Below, in pieces: positions 3 to 62,752 of a stretch of 64,000 nt of DNA. Positions within the stretch are counted from its first letter, which is position 1. Each line of letters opens with the position of its first letter. The position numbers and the translations under genes are program-made. The notes under the pieces are model-generated. The model ran no database searches, had not been told where the DNA came from, and worked only from the letters and a program-made list of their open reading frames with translations. The stretch is from Polychytrium aggregatum (Eukaryota; Chytridiomycota; Chytridiomycetes; Polychytriales): contig NW_026516213.1 in the NCBI RefSeq assembly GCF_025602895.1, positions 248,001 through 312,000 on the forward strand, in the 5' to 3' direction.

Positions 3-1936
3 TCATGAGGTGGCCGGGGCACCAAAGGTGGCTTCATAGATCTTGGAACTGGGCGAGAGCGAGACAACCAGCTGGATCGGGAAGATGCCGGATCGACCTG
101 TGGCCAGACTCTTTCCATGCGCCCAGCCGTCGTCATAGGTTTGGCTGTCATATGAGCGCAGCGATCCCAGGTTAGTATCGAGATACGTCTTGCAGCCCGG
201 CATGATAGCACTCCGCCAGCACTCACCTGATCTCGACGAGGTCTCCGGCGTTCAGGCTCAGCTCGTCGTCCTCGGAAGCGGTGAAAGGCCGGCATGCGAC
301 AAAGACGTTTGTCGGTCGAGGCTCCGAGGCATGCAATCTCTCCAGCGTGCCCGCTGTCGGGTATTCTCGGTAAGCCGCCGCCTCGATCCGCTGGATCATA
401 TCGTAGACCGGTGGCGGTGTCATGCCCCGCACCGGCAACGGAAGAGCGACCGCCTGGGTGGTTGGGGGGTGGTCGCTGCTGATATGGGCGCGGCTGTCGT
501 GGAGGCCAATGGAAGCCGTCGAGGCTGCCGGCGAGAGCCCGAGATCGCCCGCCTGGGTCAATGGGACCATGTCGATGGAAAAGTTCCGTCGGGGCTCAAA
601 GCGCATGACAGCCACTGGAGCCGCACCTGGAGGGAGGTCGTGGCTCTGCTTACTACGAGCAAGGCATCGCCGAGCGGCAAAGAACAGGATCAAGACGAGC
701 AAGCACAGCGATATGGTGGCGATGAACAGGATCATCCACAGGTTGTAGTTGGTTTGGACAGCATTGCTGGTGTCAGAGGCGCCTGCGGACGTCGTGGTCG
801 CGAGTATCATAGTGGTTGTTCCGCTGACGACCGCCATGGTTGATCCGGCCGGGGCATGGAGCGACGCAATTTGCGAGGACACCGATGTCTGGCCACGAAC
901 AGCCGCTGTGGAAGCAGTAGAGGGTGCTGGAGTTGATGGAAGCGGCTGGGGTGCATTTGAGGGTGCTGTCGCCGACGGGCCCACAGGAGGAGAGGGTACC
1001 GGCGGTGCGGGCGAGGATGTGGATGAAGGGGAAGGTGGTGGTGGTGGTGGTGGAGGAGGAGGAGGAGGCGATGGCGGTGAACTCGGTGCCTGTTGTCAAA
1101 ATCAAAGATGGGATATGTTGAGCGACAAGATCTCGGGTCAAGCCGACATGTCTCTGGCCAAGCCGACATGTCTCGTGCAAGCAAGTATGCAAGCAAGCGA
1201 GCAAGTAAGCGAAGCACATCCATCTCTGGAGCAAGCACCACGCAGGTCGTTCGGAACAAGTGACAGAGCGTTCAAACGACGAGGCTGGCAAGTCCCTGGG
1301 GGCTCTGGCCCTGGCTTCCAATCTTACCTGATAGACACTCCAGGTGTTCACGCCCCAGCTGCCAAGACAGGAACCGCAGGACGAGCCAGTGCTGCACTTG
1401 ACGTCGCAGTAGGAGTCGGCCCACTTGGCTCCGGCCGAGAGATTGCTGAGACAGACGCACACGGCCTCGTTGCACTTCAGAGACGACGACGGATAGACCC
1501 AGCCGATGGCAGCGTAGGCAAATGTGCTGCATGCCCGGATGCACCCCTGCTCGTCATTGGAGTACTTGGACGTATCCAGCGCCGGGGTATTCCAGACGAA
1601 CGAGGCATAGCAGCCCGCATAGGTCCAGCTACCTGACATGGTGCGATACCGGAGCTCGAGAGAACAGCAAGTGGATGCGCGCGGCCGAGAGCGGGTCTGG
1701 GCTGGAGAACCGCGGGACACAGGCCCGAGATGATGAGGGGGGGAGAAAGCAGTCGAGGGGGGGACAGGCGAGACTGCCCAATCGATAGGCAGCAGCTCGG
1801 CAGGAGGAGTGCTGGCGGACGGAGTGCTTGTCCAGAAGACGAGCAGACAGGCGATGGCCCCGGTGGGTTGCTGGCTGGCGAGTAACACCCGCCGATGCAG
1901 CGCACTTGGCGCGGTCGGTGCATGGTGGTTGCCCAT
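3..1936 (-). CDS. WSC-domain / transmembrane / SH3 protein
   Basis: Three exons are supported: about 1936-1328, 1089-227 and 144-3, joined in phase at good GT-AG sites (the last intron has a TACTAAC branch point). The first exon carries a Cys-rich WSC domain (YAGCYA start, eight conserved-type Cys), a family of extracellular carbohydrate-binding modules in fungal wall sensors. The second opens with a long Pro run, then Ser/Thr-rich sequence, one hydrophobic membrane segment (around 775-700) and a basic cytoplasmic stretch. The SH3 domain is split by the last intron (FTASEDDELSLNAGDLVEI, then YDDGWAHG...GIFP). The layout implies a surface wall or osmotic sensor with a cytoplasmic SH3 adaptor, as Wsc1 and Sho1 would be if merged. 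The 5' end is uncertain. The in-frame upstream stretch has a hydrophobic run that could be a signal peptide, but a small 5' exon could exist. Confidence 0.75.
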
Positions 1937-2611
1937 GTCGCTGGCTGGTCAAGGACATCCCTTGCAGTCGGCCGGGAGAGGCGCCCGAAGTTCGCTGCGC
2001 TTGTCTGTCTGTGCGATCAGGCCGGCAAGGAGGCTGTTGCACCTGTCCCCCGCCACCCTGCCCACCGCCCTTGAACCACCAGCCCCTTGGCCGAGGGTGG
2101 TTGCGCTTGCGTCTCGGAGCTGCGAGCACCAGCCAGTCTTATAGGCGGAAGCCGCTATCTCTGTGCGCTCCGGTCTTTACTGCGGGTGAGCTGCTGCTGG
2201 CTTTGTTTCCTGAGACATTCGCGACCGTCGATTGGCCCGATGCAGTCGTGCGATACCGTGCGGGTGAGGCCCACGGTATTGGCAGCTATTCAGACGACAC
2301 TGGCTCCTTGGTGCAGCAACACCGACACTGCGCCAGCGGGTGGGCGGGTGTGGGTTCGTGGGGAGGGGGAGCGAGAAGCGAAGAACGAGCGTGGGAACGC
2401 CATGGTCGTTGCTCCCGAGCGTTATGGCTTCGGCTGCGGTGTGCTGGCATCTCGCCGTTGGGACGCAGTGTCTAGTGCCATGTCCTCATACCATCGGCTC
2501 GCTGAGTTTATCCAAGATGCACACAACCCAGGCTCCCGCCACTCGCTCGTCATCATGGTACGGCAGCGATGCTCGGCGTATCCAGGTCGATCTATTTCGG
2601 CTTGGGCGCCG
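1937..2611. other. intergenic, divergent-free gap
   Basis: Between two minus-strand genes. It holds the upstream region of the WSC/SH3 gene and the 3' side of the EF-hand gene. I see no conserved gene or RNA here; the long plus-strand frames are antisense shadows. Confidence 0.5.
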
Positions 2612-4017
2612 TTACGTCGGCGGCGTCGTTGCTGTCGTGGGGATTCCCTGTCCCGGCCCCGCGCCCGCCACCCCGGCCTGGATCGGCTTCTCGGTATACA
2701 TCTGGATCAGCGCCTTGTAGTCATAAAACCCGGACTGGATGTCATGGACCACCTGCACGCAGTCCCGCGATGGGTGGGAGATGGTCAGCCGAACGACAAC
2801 ACAGGCGACCGGGCAATGGCGTCGATCCCACAGCCAAAGCCGCCTCTGTGCTCTCTCGGGTGGACTTGCCTGCATGACCAGATCCTCGGCCTCCTCGCGA
2901 GTGAGTCGCTTGTTCTCGTCGCCAAAGTCGGTCAGGATATCGATCGTTGTCTTGACGGATATCATGCCCTCGTGAACCTCTCGTCCACGATTGTTGGCTC
3001 GATCGAGCGGGCTGGCGTAATGCAAGTGCAGGTGGGGAGAGAGGATGACAAGCACAGGTGGGGAGAGAGGATGGCAAGCACAGATGTCATTGCTGGTATC
3101 CGAGTTTTGGATCGATACCGGGCCAAAGTGATGCTGGGTAGAGGATGCGGTCCGCACCACGGCATCGGCCGGCTGCTCTGTCATCAAGATTTGTCTCGAC
3201 TGCAGATCGACTGCAGGTCGACTGCATCCAGAGCAGCTCTGGCTGGCGACTTACGCAAACACTCGGAATGCCCGCATCAGGCTGTCGTCCTTCATGGAGA
3301 GCTGGACTTTGCGCGACATGGCTTTGACGAAGGCTGGCGGTGCAGGCAGAGAACGTCAGGAGTGCCACTGAGCAAGCGGGCAGAGATGGCGGCAGCCGGG
3401 ATGGTGGTGGCAGGGCCATTTGCTCACACTCGAAATCGATTTCTTCGCCACTGTCGATCTCCGACATGAGGGCTTCGATTTCGTTCTGGACCAATGTCGT
3501 TCGTTCGTTCGTGGAGGGGTCAGCATCGGCGACATGGGCAACGCGAGCGGCTCGGATCTGTCGGTATTCGAGCGGGCTGGCTGTCCATGCGCCATATACC
3601 ATGTGCCATGCGCCATATGCCATGTGCCATGTGCCGTGTCCTCTGGTCCCTCCTGGTGCAGTCCTTTCATACCTTGGAGACCCGTAAGCCGAGCGTCGTC
3701 ATCAAGGTCTCGAGCTCGTCCATGTCGATTGTTCCGCCGTGGTCCAGGTCCACGAGCCAAAAGATCTCGATGAGCTCCTGCAGCTCTGCCGGGCTCATCC
3801 CCGTGGCGATGACCAGGTTCGGGTCGATCGAGACATATCCGGCCCGACTGGCTTCCTTCTCCTCACGGACAGTGGAAGGGCGCCGGTTTTGGGTCGACCG
3901 GCGTTTGGTGAGCTTGGCTCGATTGTCGGCTGGCGGCTTGGCTGCCTCGCGCATGTTGGGAACAGCGTCGTCCTTTTCGGCCGAGAGGTTGGTCTTCTTG
4001 GTCGGCGGCTTGACCAT
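2612..4017 (-). CDS. calmodulin-like EF-hand protein
   Basis: Five exons join in phase to 254 residues: 4017-3673, 3485-3428, 3333-3255, 3011-2870 and 2752-2612. After a basic, disordered N-terminus of about 80 residues come four EF-hand positions in calmodulin/centrin order. The first is good (loop DLDHGGTIDMDE). The second is shortened (SEIDSGEEIDFESF), and the third (FRVFA...GMISVKTTIDIL) and fourth (VVHDIQSGFYDYKAL) have lost acidic ligands. The protein may therefore bind one Ca2+, or act as a scaffold rather than a full sensor. The fourth intron appears to use a GC donor (CAG|GCAAGT). An intron holds a 26-bp tandem duplication at about 3029-3080. Calmodulin-like is safer than centrin, since the distinguishing residues are eroded. 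Confidence 0.75.
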
Positions 4018-57556: not shown

Positions 57557-58283
57557 GTCGTCAGACTCGCTTGACCTCCGTGCTCGGGTGATTTCGGGTA
57601 GCTTGAGGATTTTGGCACGGGGGGAGACTCCAGCGGGAATCCGACAAATGGAGAAGCACGGTGAGCGATGTGGTGCCGCGATAGAGCGCCGACTCTCAGC
57701 CCCTGGTCGTCAAAACGACGTCCAAGGGCAGTCAGGTACCTGGCAGCTTTGGAAGGTGATGCGGCGCCTTGGATTTGGGCTTCCGAGACCCATCGCCGAC
57801 CTTTGGGCAAGTGAATGAGTGCCAAGACGGTATCGTGTTAAAATTGCAACATCGTCGGCACAACACTCATCGATCTCCTGAAGGGCCAACACTGGAGTAT
57901 GGCCGCACAGGACGAGAGCAAGCCATGCCCGCGAGTTCAAGAGCCGGCATGGAACGGGATTACAGGCATCTGCAGACCGACGGCTCCAGTGACGGCTGCC
58001 ATGGTTGTATCGCAGCCGTGAGATAGATTCTATGCCTGGAGCGAATGGGTGGATGCGCGGATGAATCGATGGATGGATGCGTGGGTGTGGGATGCGTGGG
58101 AAACCCGGCCAGGAGATGTGCGTGGAGGAGCGACGATTCAGCGAACTCATTTTTGAAACGGGACTTGCGTGGATCGAATGATGTTGATTGGCTATCTGGC
58201 TGGCTGAATGACGTCGATTGGTACTCGTGTTGAGACGTCGACCGCAGGGCCACAGCGCAATTTGAGCGACCAGAATTAGAGGC
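57557..58283. other. intergenic gap before the transposon cluster
   Basis: Upstream of CFAP100. Contains GATG/GGATGC-rich sequence (about 58045-58100). No gene recognised. Confidence 0.5.
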
Positions 58284-58490
58284 CATCCAGAAAGAACGGG
58301 ACAGTTCCTTCCTGGCTTCAGATGTCTGAACCCCGCTGACTGACTGTAGGCCCCAGCGGGCAGGCCGTGAGATTGTTTCCCGTCCTGGTTGGCAATCGAG
58401 TGGTTTTGGTTGGTTTGGGAAGCACAGTCTTGAATACACTCGGTCGATCTCCTGTGGCGACGATCGACTGGCATACCGAGATCATGTTCC
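58284..58490 (-). mobile_element. mariner-like relic, 3' end fragment
   Basis: Begins with an inverted-repeat end (TCCAGAAAGAACGGGACA at 58286-58303). The next about 190 bases align with 17994-18175, for example GATTGTTTCC.GT.CTGGTTGGC and TGGCATACCGAGA.CATGTTC. Both copies lie in the same orientation relative to their end. No transposase sequence is left in this copy. Confidence 0.7.
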
Positions 58491-58753
58491 TTGAGGCATT
58501 GATGTCTCGATGTGTGAGTGTGGTGCATCCACTCGACTCTCTGGACAGCTCAATGATATCTCGATATCAAGATGGTGCTGTGCTTGGCCATGAATGCGAT
58601 GAGTGGATGGGTGTATTCAGGTTCCAGAAAAAATACAGTCATAGCTCAAAACGGGGGTGTCCCATTTCATTTTGGAAAGGCTTTAGTCATTTCCCCTGGG
58701 TGAGGAGGAAGGCGAAAGGCAAAGAGCAATATCGCTTGACCAGATTACAGGCA

Positions 58754-58773
58754 ATCCAATAAAAAACGGGACA
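58754..58773 (+). repeat. left terminal inverted repeat
   Basis: AATCCAATAAAAAACGGGAC; matches the reverse complement of the right end at 16 of 20 positions. Confidence 0.75.
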
Positions 58774-58830
58774 CCCAGGGTTTGACCATTCATCGAATAT
58801 TTTGTTACCCAATGTTATCGCGCGCTGGCC

Positions 58831-59500
58831 ATGACCATTCGCCACACATCCGACTTTCGCACCGCCGCATTGCGATGCTACGCCCTCATCCATAGCCTGC
58901 GTAAGGTCGCCTCCATATTCAGTGTATCCAAGAGCACCATCCATCGATGGCACCGAGGATGCAAGCTGGATGACCCATCCCGGGTCCCAGCTCGCAGATC
59001 CACTTTCTTCGAGCAGGCATGTCCAGTCATTCGCACCCTGATTGAACAGGATCCGTTCCAGACTGGTCCTGTGTTGCGATGCAAGCTCGAGTCCATCCTC
59101 CAGAGGAAAGTATCACTCTCACTCTGCCACACTGCCATCCAGCGAGCAGGTCTCTCACACAAGAGGGCAACACACCTCTACAAGTCCAAGCGACTGGATG
59201 AGCGAGTGGCACAGTTCAGGGACCAAGTCCACTCCATCGACCCACGACGACTCGTTTTTGTCGATGAGACAGGGATCAGGAGATCCATTTTCCCTCTTTA
59301 CGGATACTCACCGAAGGGTGCTCCGCTTCGCCAGCGCAATCACATGAAGCACAAGTCTGTCTCGGCTGCATTTGCCATCAACCACTCTGGTGTGCTGCAT
59401 CGAGCGCCGAGGATGGTCAGTGATCTTCACCCCACCTGCCTCACTCGACTTCAATCCCATCGAGAACTTCTTTGGGGTTGAGTCCCCACCGATTTGGGGT
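58831..59500 (+). pseudogene. truncated Tc1/mariner-IS630 DDE transposase
   Basis: ATG 58831 opens a frame of 216 codons. It starts with a helix-turn-helix (LRKVASIFSVSKSTIHRWH), then a second DNA-binding part (FEQACPVIRTLIEQ), then the first catalytic Asp (RRLVFVDETGIRRSIFPLYG). After about 59415 the sequence jumps. The stretch with the second Asp (usual form LDNASIH) is missing, and the third-residue box appears one frame over as PPASLDFNPIENFFG (about 59429-59475). It ends abruptly at the repeat before the Fanzor promoter. So it has an internal deletion, a frameshift and no C-terminus, and cannot be active. Transposition would need a partner enzyme. Confidence 0.85.
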
Positions 59501-59514
59501 TGAGTTCCCTCCAA
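59471..59514 (+). repeat. 22-bp tandem duplication at the transposase/Fanzor junction
   Basis: TTTGGGGTTGAGT occurs at 59471 and again at 59493; the two 22-base units differ at a few positions. It sits exactly where transposase similarity stops. Confidence 0.8.
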
Positions 59515-59620
59515 TCAAGCCGCCATTTTCGCGTTCACATCCCTGGCTTGAACCTCTCGGCGATTTTTGAACAGGGTCGCTTCCCAACCAACCCGCAAAG
59601 ACGGGTTCCTGCTCTCGGGT

Positions 59621-59626
59621 ATAAAT
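59621..59626 (+). promoter_or_regulatory. TATA box of the Fanzor gene
   Basis: TATAAA, 128 bases before the ATG, followed by a pyrimidine-rich stretch (59635-59670) typical of a transcription start region. Confidence 0.5.
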
Positions 59627-59754
59627 GCCACACCTTCGTCCTGCTGCTTTCTTCCCTCATCTCGCCTTGATCTGATCATCGCGCTATTGTACGATAAAAA
59701 AAAGTCTCTGCTCTGACCAGTACCACTGGCAGGCATCCAGCATCCTCTGCCCCC

Positions 59755-62127
59755 ATGCCTCCGAAGCGTAAGGGTGCCGGTGATGGCCAGCCTCGGCCAC
59801 CCAGGCCCAAGAAAGCCAAGTCACAGTCGGAGCCTGTCTCTGGTTCGTCTTCTGACCCCACGCATGCTTGGTCGTCTGTTGCTCCGTCGCTCACCACCAC
59901 TGCTTCTGCAGATCCAATGGATGTCGATCCCACCGAGCCTGGTCCATCTACTTCCTCGAGTACCAGCAAGCGATGTCCCAAGTGCGATGGCACCGATCAC
60001 GAACGCTGCAACACTAGCAAGTGTTCCGAATACCGGCCCCTCAAGAGTTCTGTCGTCCCACTCGTGGATGGAAGGTCATCCGCCCCTCAGTTCAGCTGCT
60101 TCAAGCAGACCATGGATGGCTGTTGTCTCAATCCCGCTCTCCGCGACAAGATCCAGGCCACCGTCGAGGCCATGACCCAGATCCAGTTCGAGGCATCCAG
60201 GCTGCTCAACCTGCACATCCTCCGGTGCATCGAGCAGGATCTTCCCATCCCCGTCATCTCCAAGTCCACCCCTGCTTTCGTTCGCCAATGCTTCAGGATC
60301 GTCCAGGCCGATGCGCTCTCCCCGACCGGGGACAATGAGAAATACAACGAGCATCTGGTCGCTTCCTTTCGCGACTACCAGACCACTCGGCACGCAGACC
60401 TGCCTCCGGCCCCTCGTCTGCCTGATGGTGCTCACAGTCAGCTTCTCACTCTCGCTGTCAATGCCTATGCCACCAACTGCACCACCCACCTCAATCTGGC
60501 ATACTGGCGACTCCTTCGCCGCTTCTGCGCTGCCGTCTTCCCAGCCAACAAGCACAAGCACGAAGCCATCGAGGCCTGTCTCGAGCTCTTCGAGAAACCA
60601 GACTCGACTCCACCCAAGGCCGATCTCGAGTTCCTCTATCCCGACTTTGGCCACGTCCTGGACGAGTTTCGGTACAGCAACGACCAGGACCGCTTCCGGG
60701 CCCTTCATCGCCTCTCACACCATGTGAGAATCCTCGCCCGAGACAAGATGGTCGACAATGTCCACAAGTGGATCGACTGTGACATGCCCGCCCTCCGAGT
60801 CACCGAGCTGCAGCGCCAGGCCAAGCTGGACGAGCTCACTACCCAAGGCATTCCCTCCGACGACAAGAGGTTCACCACGGCCAAGTCTGAGCTCGGCACC
60901 ACCAAGTCCAAGATCAACCAGCTGGCATCCAGGATCAACTGGGCACTCAAGCAGCTCGCCGTCGACACTCCTCCGGCCGTGTGCACGATGGTTCCTCTAT
61001 GCACTGCCACGGCCAAATACATCAAGATCGACACGGCCACCCTCTGGGATCTCCTTGGTCCAAAGAAGCGCCTTGGACTCACCCGGGACAAGCTCAAGGA
61101 AGAAGGTGATGACGGCATCAACAACCAGGATCGTCTCTGGCGCAGTTGCTTCAAGCTGCGTAGTTCCCTCTTCCAAGAGCGGGACGTGAACAAGAAGCTG
61201 TTCAACTACGAGATCAGCACCGATGGCATTGGATGCACCATCGGTCTCGTCAAGTTTGTGCGTCGAACCGATCACACCGAGACCTCCGAGCCTCCTCCGA
61301 CTGCCGAGCAGCGCATCCAGGCCCACATCGGCAACCCAGACCCCGATCGCACCACTTGGATTGGCATCGATCCTGGAGTCGGCTCCATCTTCACGGCGGT
61401 CATCCAAGCACCGGGCCACCAAGACGAGGTGGTCTCATTCTCCAATGGCCACTACCAGCACATGTGTGGCCATACGTCCAACACCAAGTGGCACAATATC
61501 ATGAAGTATCGACTCAGCATCGAGACCTGGATGTCGACCACCCCCTCGCCCAAGGTGTCGTCCTCGGAGGCTTTCAAGGTCCATCTCACCCATGTCCTGC
61601 GACCGGAGCTGCGAGTGCAGCTCGACTTCCACCTTGGCAAGAAGGCCCGTCACCATCGCTTCACGGGCTACAAGAGGCGCCAAGTGGCCGTCGACAGGAT
61701 GTGCAAGGCCGTCCTGAAGCACGCCCCGATACGGACCGATGTGGTGATCGCCTTTGGCAATGCGTCATGGCGACAGGGCAAGGGCTATGCATCCAGCCCT
61801 CGGAGGCAGCGGTTTGCTCGGTACTTTGAGCAATTCGAGCACCACCGACGCCGTCCCAATCACCATCATGGAAGCGTCAAGGTGGCCTCGACGAACGAGT
61901 TCAACACCTCGCAAGTGTGCTCCAAGTGCCTGGAGCCAGTTCGGTTGGAAGGACTCGATGCGCCCAGTGTTGCGAATTCCCACTTTGTCAGGAGCTGCAA
62001 GAATCCCAGCTGCCGGACAGTGTGGAATCGCGACGTCAATGCGGCGCGCAACATGATCGCAGTGTGCAGGTCGATTGTAGAGATCGGAGAGCGACCAGCG
62101 GTCTTCACTCGGAGGCTGCCAAAGTGA
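59755..62127 (+). CDS. Fanzor-type RNA-guided nuclease (eukaryotic TnpB homologue)
   Basis: An uninterrupted 790-codon frame, unlike the intron-rich host genes. The first 100 residues are disordered with a basic, nuclear-import-like start (PPKRKGAGDGQPRPPRPKKAK) and a zinc-knuckle-like CPKCDGTDHERCNTSKC (residues 74-90). The middle is helical, as expected for a recognition lobe. The RuvC core follows: motif I WIGIDPGVGS (Asp539), the strand VVIAFGNASW where TnpB has its usual Glu but here Ala, then STNEFNTSQVC with Glu715. The zinc ribbon is C722-x2-C725...C748-x4-C753, and motif III NRDVNAARNM has Asp760. In known Fanzors the catalytic Glu has moved, which fits Glu715. All parts look intact, so activity is plausible. 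Family assignment rests on these motifs. Confidence 0.93.
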   Translation: MPPKRKGAGDGQPRPPRPKKAKSQSEPVSGSSSDPTHAWSSVAPSLTTTASADPMDVDPTEPGPSTSSSTSKRCPKCDGTDHERCNTSKCSEYRPLKSSVVPLVDGRSSAPQFSCFKQTMDGCCLNPALRDKIQATVEAMTQIQFEASRLLNLHILRCIEQDLPIPVISKSTPAFVRQCFRIVQADALSPTGDNEKYNEHLVASFRDYQTTRHADLPPAPRLPDGAHSQLLTLAVNAYATNCTTHLNLAYWRLLRRFCAAVFPANKHKHEAIEACLELFEKPDSTPPKADLEFLYPDFGHVLDEFRYSNDQDRFRALHRLSHHVRILARDKMVDNVHKWIDCDMPALRVTELQRQAKLDELTTQGIPSDDKRFTTAKSELGTTKSKINQLASRINWALKQLAVDTPPAVCTMVPLCTATAKYIKIDTATLWDLLGPKKRLGLTRDKLKEEGDDGINNQDRLWRSCFKLRSSLFQERDVNKKLFNYEISTDGIGCTIGLVKFVRRTDHTETSEPPPTAEQRIQAHIGNPDPDRTTWIGIDPGVGSIFTAVIQAPGHQDEVVSFSNGHYQHMCGHTSNTKWHNIMKYRLSIETWMSTTPSPKVSSSEAFKVHLTHVLRPELRVQLDFHLGKKARHHRFTGYKRRQVAVDRMCKAVLKHAPIRTDVVIAFGNASWRQGKGYASSPRRQRFARYFEQFEHHRRRPNHHHGSVKVASTNEFNTSQVCSKCLEPVRLEGLDAPSVANSHFVRSCKNPSCRTVWNRDVNAARNMIAVCRSIVEIGERPAVFTRRLPK

Positions 62128-62220
62128 TCTGTTTTATTTCTTGTGGCTTTGCTAGACGCAAGCACAGCACATACTACATGTTCATGGAAACGGCTATATT
62201 GTCCCGTTTTTTTCTGAATA
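62060..62220 (+). ncRNA. candidate Fanzor guide-RNA scaffold region
   Basis: Inferred, not seen directly. In characterised TnpB and Fanzor loci the guide RNA overlaps the 3' end of the gene and runs to the right end of the element, with the guide in the flanking DNA. Here that is the end of the coding frame, the 72-base spacer and the right inverted repeat. The guide would then start near 62221. Confidence 0.4.
62200..62220 (+). repeat. right terminal inverted repeat
   Basis: TGTCCCGTTTTTTTCTGAAT and one further base; reverse complement of the family end. Confidence 0.75.
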
Positions 62221-62752
62221 AAGTGTAGAGGCCCGGACTGGCTCCATGGGATCTGGATCTGGCATTCAAGGAGCTGTCCTTAGCCATAATTTGCGCTCAA
62301 CAGACACAGTTTAAAGAGACGGTACAACTGCTGATGGCAAATGAGGACCAGCATGGGCTCTGCCGATCGGCGTTGGCATGGCCCGCAGCCAGCAACCAGA
62401 ACTGTCTCGATGCAATGCTCAAGGCCATGCTGGTCTGGGGTTAGACCCATTTCGGCCGGCGATCTCTGCCCACATCACGCCGCACTCGAGGATATTATGT
62501 GACATAGGGCTGTCAGCACGACGAGTAGGCGGACATGGGATGCCAACGGCACAACAGCACAGTTGCAAGGCAAGTCATGTTTGTGTATGGAGGGTCTAAT
62601 ATGCTCCGGAGCACACCGGGGCTCGGGGGATCGGCCCAATAGAATATGGAGACAGCGGCCGGGATGGAGCGGGGAGTGTGGAGCATAGTACATGGCGTAC
62701 AAGTCGACTCGCAGGCATCAAGTCCGTGCATTTGGACGACGGTAAAAAACTC
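62221..62752. other. flank of the transposon, with a short open frame
   Basis: A plus-strand frame without ATG runs from 62229 to the stop at 62442-62444. It translates to coding-like helical sequence (FKELSLAIICAQQTQFKETV, then LLMANEDQHGLCRSALAW) that faintly recalls ankyrin repeats. It may be a remnant of a gene cut by the insertion. The rest, to the RPA12 stop, shows nothing. Confidence 0.4.

Follow-up and report, generated by a model that had tools for sequence, protein, structure and literature searches.

A Fanzor1 gene in a Tc1/mariner-type transposon of the chytrid Polychytrium aggregatum, with its native transposase and a one-sided TTA bias at insertion sites

The window analyzed here, i.e. 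the whole 64,000-nucleotide stretch of Polychytrium aggregatum DNA (assembly GCF_025602895.1, contig NW_026516213.1, positions 248,001 to 312,000), contains a Tc1/mariner-type transposon of 3,478 bp on the forward strand (58748–62225). The limits of this element are the points at which copies lose identity: these points coincide between the window copy and 19 of the 20 copies that were fetched, the exception (L016) being a copy with no recognisable left end. At both ends lie TIRs of about 26 bp with the common sequence AAAAAACGGGACA. The left TIR, CAGGCAATCCAATAAAAAACGGGACA (58748–58773, forward strand), pairs with the right end, and the right TIR (62200–62225, forward strand) contains an AATAAA at 62217–62222. 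A target-site TA adjoins the element on the left (58746–58747), where the preceding T58745 completes the TTA predicted as the end of the TAM, and on the right (62226–62227). Between the TIRs, two ORFs were identified on the forward strand, namely, a transposase ORF (58831–59481) that is shortened by deletions relative to other copies, and a Fanzor1 ORF of 790 aa (59755–62127). The latter runs from ATG to TGA with neither an internal stop nor an intron, in agreement with the earlier note on this DNA, which had described the frame as intact. The same note had reported transposon ends, and these are indeed present at 58748 and 62225, each with its flanking TA, with the correction that the transposase ORF is deletion-shortened in this copy. 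Full copies of the element are 3.73–3.74 kb long and, in these, a transposase ORF of up to 310 aa precedes the Fanzor gene.

The RuvC catalytic set of the 790-aa protein consists of D539 (within D539-P540-G541, the DPG motif), E715 and D760. Both aspartates and the four zinc-ribbon cysteines (C722/C725/C748/C753) are found at the positions previously claimed; the third catalytic residue, E715, had been overlooked. It is a displaced glutamate (Ealt), located six residues ahead of C722 (E715-FNTSQV-C722), and the region of the canonical glutamate, VVIAFGNASW, contains no E; the displaced glutamate is described in PMC10711439 as a mark of Fanzors. The pattern [TS][TS]xx-C4-x(5,50)-RD is present as TSQV, C722/C725/C748/C753 and RD759-760, the second cysteine pair (C748/C753) being CxxxxC, not CxxC. 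The DPG motif is invariant among 19 aligned copies and is found also in a second Fanzor1 family of the same genome (L105), as is T489-D490-G491, which matches the TDG motif assigned to the Fanzor1 WED domain (PMC10711439). E715 is replaced by K in one of the 19 aligned copies (L017), in which both the Fanzor and the transposase frames are nonetheless intact. The basic N-terminus, read by eye, is a putative NLS.

In the Pfam search, residues 708–767 matched PF07282 (Cas12f1-like TNB zinc ribbon) above the curated cut-off (E = 6.5 × 10−9), and the guided_TnpB model of NCBIfam matched the same TNB stretch below its cut-off. When the single 790-aa sequence was used as the phmmer query, matches to PDB were weak. 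A two-family profile (A2), which comprises the window Fanzor1 family and the L105 family of the same genome, gave SpuFz1 of Spizellomyces punctatus as the best PDB match (8gkh, E = 0.0053), followed by the TnpB-related LaTranC (9jfo/9jfq, E = 0.10 and 0.11) and Guillardia Fanzor1 (9cer, E = 0.11); the remaining matches up to E = 10 were two TPR chains (E = 1.3 and 3.7). The HMMER alignment to SpuFz1 covers the last ~86 residues only. In this alignment, E715 and D760 are matched by a Glu and an Asp of SpuFz1 that are, by our count, 65 positions apart, as are E541 and D606 of SpuFz1 (PMC10432273). The profile search proposed in the earlier note thus lends support to the Fanzor identity, through PF07282 above the cut-off and through SpuFz1 as the best solved relative with profile A2. 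The C-terminal 260 residues resemble TnpB/Cas12f zinc-ribbon models (above the cut-off in Pfam, below it in NCBIfam), and the sequence tests yielded no closer match to an unrelated RuvC or RNase H protein. A single-sequence AlphaFold model had a mean pLDDT of 39.7, too poor for a structure search, and scans of IMG/VR confirmed no viral relatives. Judged by its sequence, the 790-aa frame is a real, intact Fanzor1, a member of the pro-Fanzor/Fanzor clade.

The 310-aa transposase ORF of one full copy (L017) matches DDE_3 (PF13358, E = 5.7 × 10−22). A serine recombinase partner of the IS607 kind was not found; the element codes for the DDE_3 transposase instead. By the TA TSD, the TIRs and the DDE_3 transposase, we classify the element as Tc1/mariner-type, i.e. 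a canonical eukaryotic transposon and not an IS607 element.

The genome of P. aggregatum contains at least 57 full-length copies of this Fanzor, 49 without and 8 with a stop, these being the copies that were scored among 1,279 first-look candidates; all 57 align over residues 1–790 (one over 2–790), with 93–100% identity. Allowing up to three mismatches, the right end was matched 276 times genome-wide and the left end with its TA 386 times, and the reversed-pattern controls gave 0 for each. Three left-end loci with no perfect right end listed nearby were truncated (L102), interrupted (L104) and near-full (L103), the right end of the last having fallen outside the fetched stretch. Because many sites stand on two contigs (11 of the 16 tested), the copies per haploid genome are likely to be fewer, perhaps half. 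That some Fanzor transposons attain hundreds of copies is already known (PMC10711439).

Both the Fanzor and the transposase ORFs are under selection: among 18 distinct copies, dN/dS is 0.28 for Fanzor and 0.34 for the transposase. The Fanzor frame is open in 17 of these 18 distinct full elements, and the whole 930-bp transposase frame is present in 5. The notion that Fanzor persists as the transposase degenerates was considered and dropped, given that the 18 elements were chosen by Fanzor score and that, in a search with a 268-aa variant of L018 as the transposase query, 129 of the 143 scored matches were free of stops. With the transposase largely intact genome-wide, Fanzor does not appear to be specially preserved.

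When insertion sites were compared, both ends could be taken from 56 of the 57 copies (L016, for which no left end was found, was omitted, and L037 was given a manually placed left limit for the flank counts), yielding 49 distinct sites. The left TA is present in all 49 and the right TA in 47. The base before the left TA (position −3) is T in 46 of the 49 distinct sites, A in two and C in one; of the TA dinucleotides in the window, 13% have a T before them, so that 46 of 49 corresponds to p = 2 × 10−37. One position further out on the left, the base is A or T in 38 of the 49 sites. At the mirror position on the right, A is found in 10 of 49, near background. In a second set of left ends, of which 100 among 141 were listed, the T is present in 97; this set was compiled independently of the state of Fanzor, was not purged of allelic doubles and overlaps the set of 49 sites. 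Reading of the flanks of L010 showed that the T sits within a host tandem repeat that has it elsewhere, and therefore the T at this site belongs to the target DNA; the C of L029, which is one of the three sites without the T, is also part of a host tandem repeat. Such a one-sided bias is unexpected from a symmetric TA-inserting enzyme. A TAM ending in 5′-TTA is predicted; in Spu-1, the element that carries SpuFz1, a conserved CA precedes the left IR, and the TAM is CATA (PMC10432273). In two pairs of copies (L031/L049 and L066/L084), the right flank is common and the left flanks differ, suggestive of rearrangement or recombination at the element.

The 98 nt that follow the Fanzor stop codon are conserved, with a nucleotide diversity of 0.0231, compared to 0.0454 for the 84 nt at the left end and 0.0487 for the intergenic stretch, and the right end is significantly less diverse than the other non-coding parts (permutation p = 0.0082). 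The C-terminal part of the Fanzor coding sequence is less diverse as well (0.0312 vs. 0.039–0.042 in the rest of the CDS); thus, diversity declines toward the right end. The low diversity fits an RNA scaffold, as well as any constrained right end. The predicted omega-RNA scaffold would span the 3′ non-coding sequence, the right TIR and the TA (62128–62227, forward strand), and would be followed by a predicted guide, which comprises the ~15 nt immediately beyond the right TA (62228–62242, forward strand) and differs between sites; the guide is placed by analogy with that of SpuFz1, which is 14–15 nt long (PMC10432273). Under thermodynamic folding, the right-end RNA folds no better than shuffled sequences (z from −0.79 to −1.17), and no covariation was detected among 27 distinct right-end rows; both results count against the omega-RNA model. 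A scan of 58700–62300 with the Rfam models gave nothing near the gathering score. In the minimum-energy fold, which is not significant, the right repeat including the TA pairs with the sequence just upstream, and the TIR and TSD are described as taking part in other Fanzor1 RNAs in the same manner (PMC10711439). The AATAAA at 62217–62222 is missing from only 4 of the 49 distinct sites and could set the 3′ end of the transcript, and hence the guide, within the flank. The earlier note had proposed to look for small-RNA reads that end near 62221; the guide RNA is predicted to extend beyond this point, through the TA to 62227 and about 15 nt into the flank.

The second Fanzor1 family (L105) encodes a protein of 881 aa that is 40% identical to the window family over 814 columns and keeps the DPG, the displaced E, the D, the C4, the RD and the TDG. 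The C-terminus of a related transposase, read by eye, lies just upstream. The long-frame matches C378, C402, C2, C72 and C373 are assigned to this family by their scores only, and its left end has 237 matches in the genome. An internally deleted remnant of the second family is found in the window on the reverse strand (58279–58683, exact limits read by eye; C-terminal translation ...HRDINASRNMISVCQSIVATGDRPSVFKTVLPK). It has TA at 58277–58278 and 58684–58685 and ends that match those of the second family, and is a separate element, with 62 bp between it and the left TA of the main one; L013 and L017 likewise have a second-family remnant within ~0.7 kb of the right end. The repeat that ends in ACGGGACAGT was considered as a Fanzor-free control and rejected since it is the right end of the second Fanzor family: at least eight listed matches to the ACGGGACAGT end lie ~175 bp beyond second-family zinc-ribbon matches. 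Because the repeat belongs to a Fanzor family, the Fisher test against it is not used here as evidence.

A search of the genome with PF07282 gave 150 scored matches, which can be sorted by score and frame length into several classes. One of these, L106, is a Fanzor2-like, mimivirus L79-like ORF of 476 aa (290–1717 of that locus, reverse strand), with TnpB-like L79 as the best PDB match (9b0l, E = 3 × 10−24). Its N-terminus matches a MerR-type HTH below the cut-off (E = 0.0058), followed by VCYARVSS, which we take to be a serine-recombinase-like start; L106 is possibly a TnpA-TnpB fusion that arose through deletion in an IS607-type element. A second protein, L107, is Fanzor2-like by sequence and has DRG instead of DPG.

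For 48 joined junctions (16 + 32), the best candidates, which were those scored, included no empty allele, and homing was accordingly not observed. The site of L081/L099 was omitted from this test because its right flank contains another left end, and a spanning match at L024 (82%), located within a tandem repeat, was not taken for an empty site. In a derivative of ~300 bp (L101), nothing remains of the element but ~100 bp from its left end and ~214 bp from its right end, and the same site carries a full element on another contig; this ends-only derivative resembles the ghost loci of S. punctatus.

In seven pairs of copies that occupy the same site, the left flank (182–400 bp) is 99.5–100% identical in all seven, and the left 0.9–1.0 kb of the element differs by about 1–5% in five; over the same part, L014 and L015 differ by 0.3%, and L026 and L027 differ in a single base. 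Over 3,624 bp, L014 and L015 show 118 differences (3.3%), all but one at alignment positions 864–3363, and at 96 of the 118 both states are known from other copies; in their flanks, by contrast, identity is 99.9% over 2.2 kb and 99.2% over 2.9 kb, the latter with a single mismatch and a single gap. Near-identical flanks are also the rule in L045/L071, L073/L028 and other pairs, and some of the interiors diverge like those of unrelated copies. The natural reading of these interior differences is ectopic gene conversion, and the alternative reading is mis-polishing of repeats in the assembly. Ectopic exchange may help to explain why the copies stay ~96% alike.

Among known systems, Spu-1 of S. 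punctatus (PMC10432273, PMC3627910) is also a Fanzor1 in a TIR element with a putative TA TSD, and the conserved nucleotides before its left IR lie within the TAM, which is CATA there and, by prediction, TTA here. Spu-1 is further described as having a right-end RNA region and ghost derivatives, and the C-terminal tails of SpuFz1 and the window protein are similar (RP-VF-R-P). The two differ in size (790 aa here vs. 633 aa for SpuFz1; PMC3627910) and in the transposase, which PMC10432273 reports as not found between the IRs of Spu-1, whereas some of the full copies here have an intact one. PUl-1 and PGv-1 are alike in that a Mariner-like transposase and a Fanzor1 lie inside TA-flanked TIRs (PMC3627910); PGv-1, as described there, is a single copy with a third gene, whereas the present element comprises two genes, and its ends have hundreds of matches in a 64.7-Mb genome. 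The RuvC-TNB nuclease is common to this element and to IS607-type Fanzor2/TnpB, and the DPG with the displaced glutamate is common with Fanzor2; unlike in these IS607-type systems, there is no serine recombinase, and the N-terminal half is large and mostly helical. The present gene is a further Fanzor1, with its native transposase, a readable candidate TAM and an unusually complete context.

Taken together, these observations make it probable that the Fanzor1 is an RNA-guided nuclease carried as cargo by a Tc1/mariner-type cut-and-paste transposon and homing by means of a right-end omega-RNA. Under this model, the 310-aa DDE transposase, which is open in some other copies, would insert the element at TA. 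An omega-RNA would arise from the last ~100 nt, including the duplicated TA, either out of the Fanzor transcript or as a transcript of its own, with the first ~15 nt of the right flanking DNA as its 3′ guide. The empty version of the site, with 5′-TTA ahead of the sequence that the guide matches, would then be cut by Fanzor in the homologue or sister chromatid, and repair from the occupied copy would restore or spread the element, thereby keeping it in place. It is improbable that the protein is instead an inactive or repurposed RuvC protein that is passively carried by the transposon: such a role would accommodate the K in place of E715 in L017 and the stops in 8 of the 57 listed Fanzor copies, but the window copy has all three catalytic positions intact, these are kept in the 40%-identical family, and dN/dS is 0.28. 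Practically no weight can be given to a chance ORF or an unrelated RNase H-like protein, as the profile matches, the conserved catalytic set, the 57 listed copies and the purifying selection in 18 of them stand against the observations that just 60 residues pass the curated profile cut-off and that the single-sequence phmmer search of PDB was weak.

The origin of the TTA bias bears on the preferred, nuclease-based model directly, given that the bias could reflect the taste of the transposase and that three of the 49 sites lack the T; both points count against this model, as do the largely intact transposase and the loss of E715 in L017. An oriented, asymmetric preference of the transposase, with the Fanzor TAM having merely evolved to match it, is a serious contender, to which we assign somewhat less than even weight. 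The two TIRs differ, and an oriented complex is therefore possible; moreover, in IS200/IS605 elements, the target sites of TnpA match the TAMs of TnpB, such matching of TAM and insertion site being the rule in the bacterial relatives. In contrast, the targets of Tc1/mariner transposases are symmetric TA, and the second TA-flanked family shows mixed bases at −3 (T, A, A, T and C, the C being that in the window) at the five presumed left ends with readable flanks, against 237 matches in all, although this family has a Fanzor of its own and its left end was identified by eye. A rather speculative extension of the nuclease-based model, which we consider unlikely on balance, is that the transposase inserts at any TA and that copies persist almost only beside a left TTA because only there could Fanzor re-cut the emptied sites and force the element to be recopied.

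If such nuclease-driven persistence were true, the patchy exchange between copies at one site would have been left behind by that repair, and the pattern as a whole would amount to genomic evidence for a function in vivo of eukaryotic Fanzors, the biological role of which is stated to be unknown in PMC10432273. Because the transposase and the Fanzor are both available in intact form within a single family, along with hundreds of end matches and insertion sites that can be read, a role in insertion vs. retention is open to experiment with the native pair; in addition, the predicted motif, TTA, is short and AT-rich and would be of practical interest.
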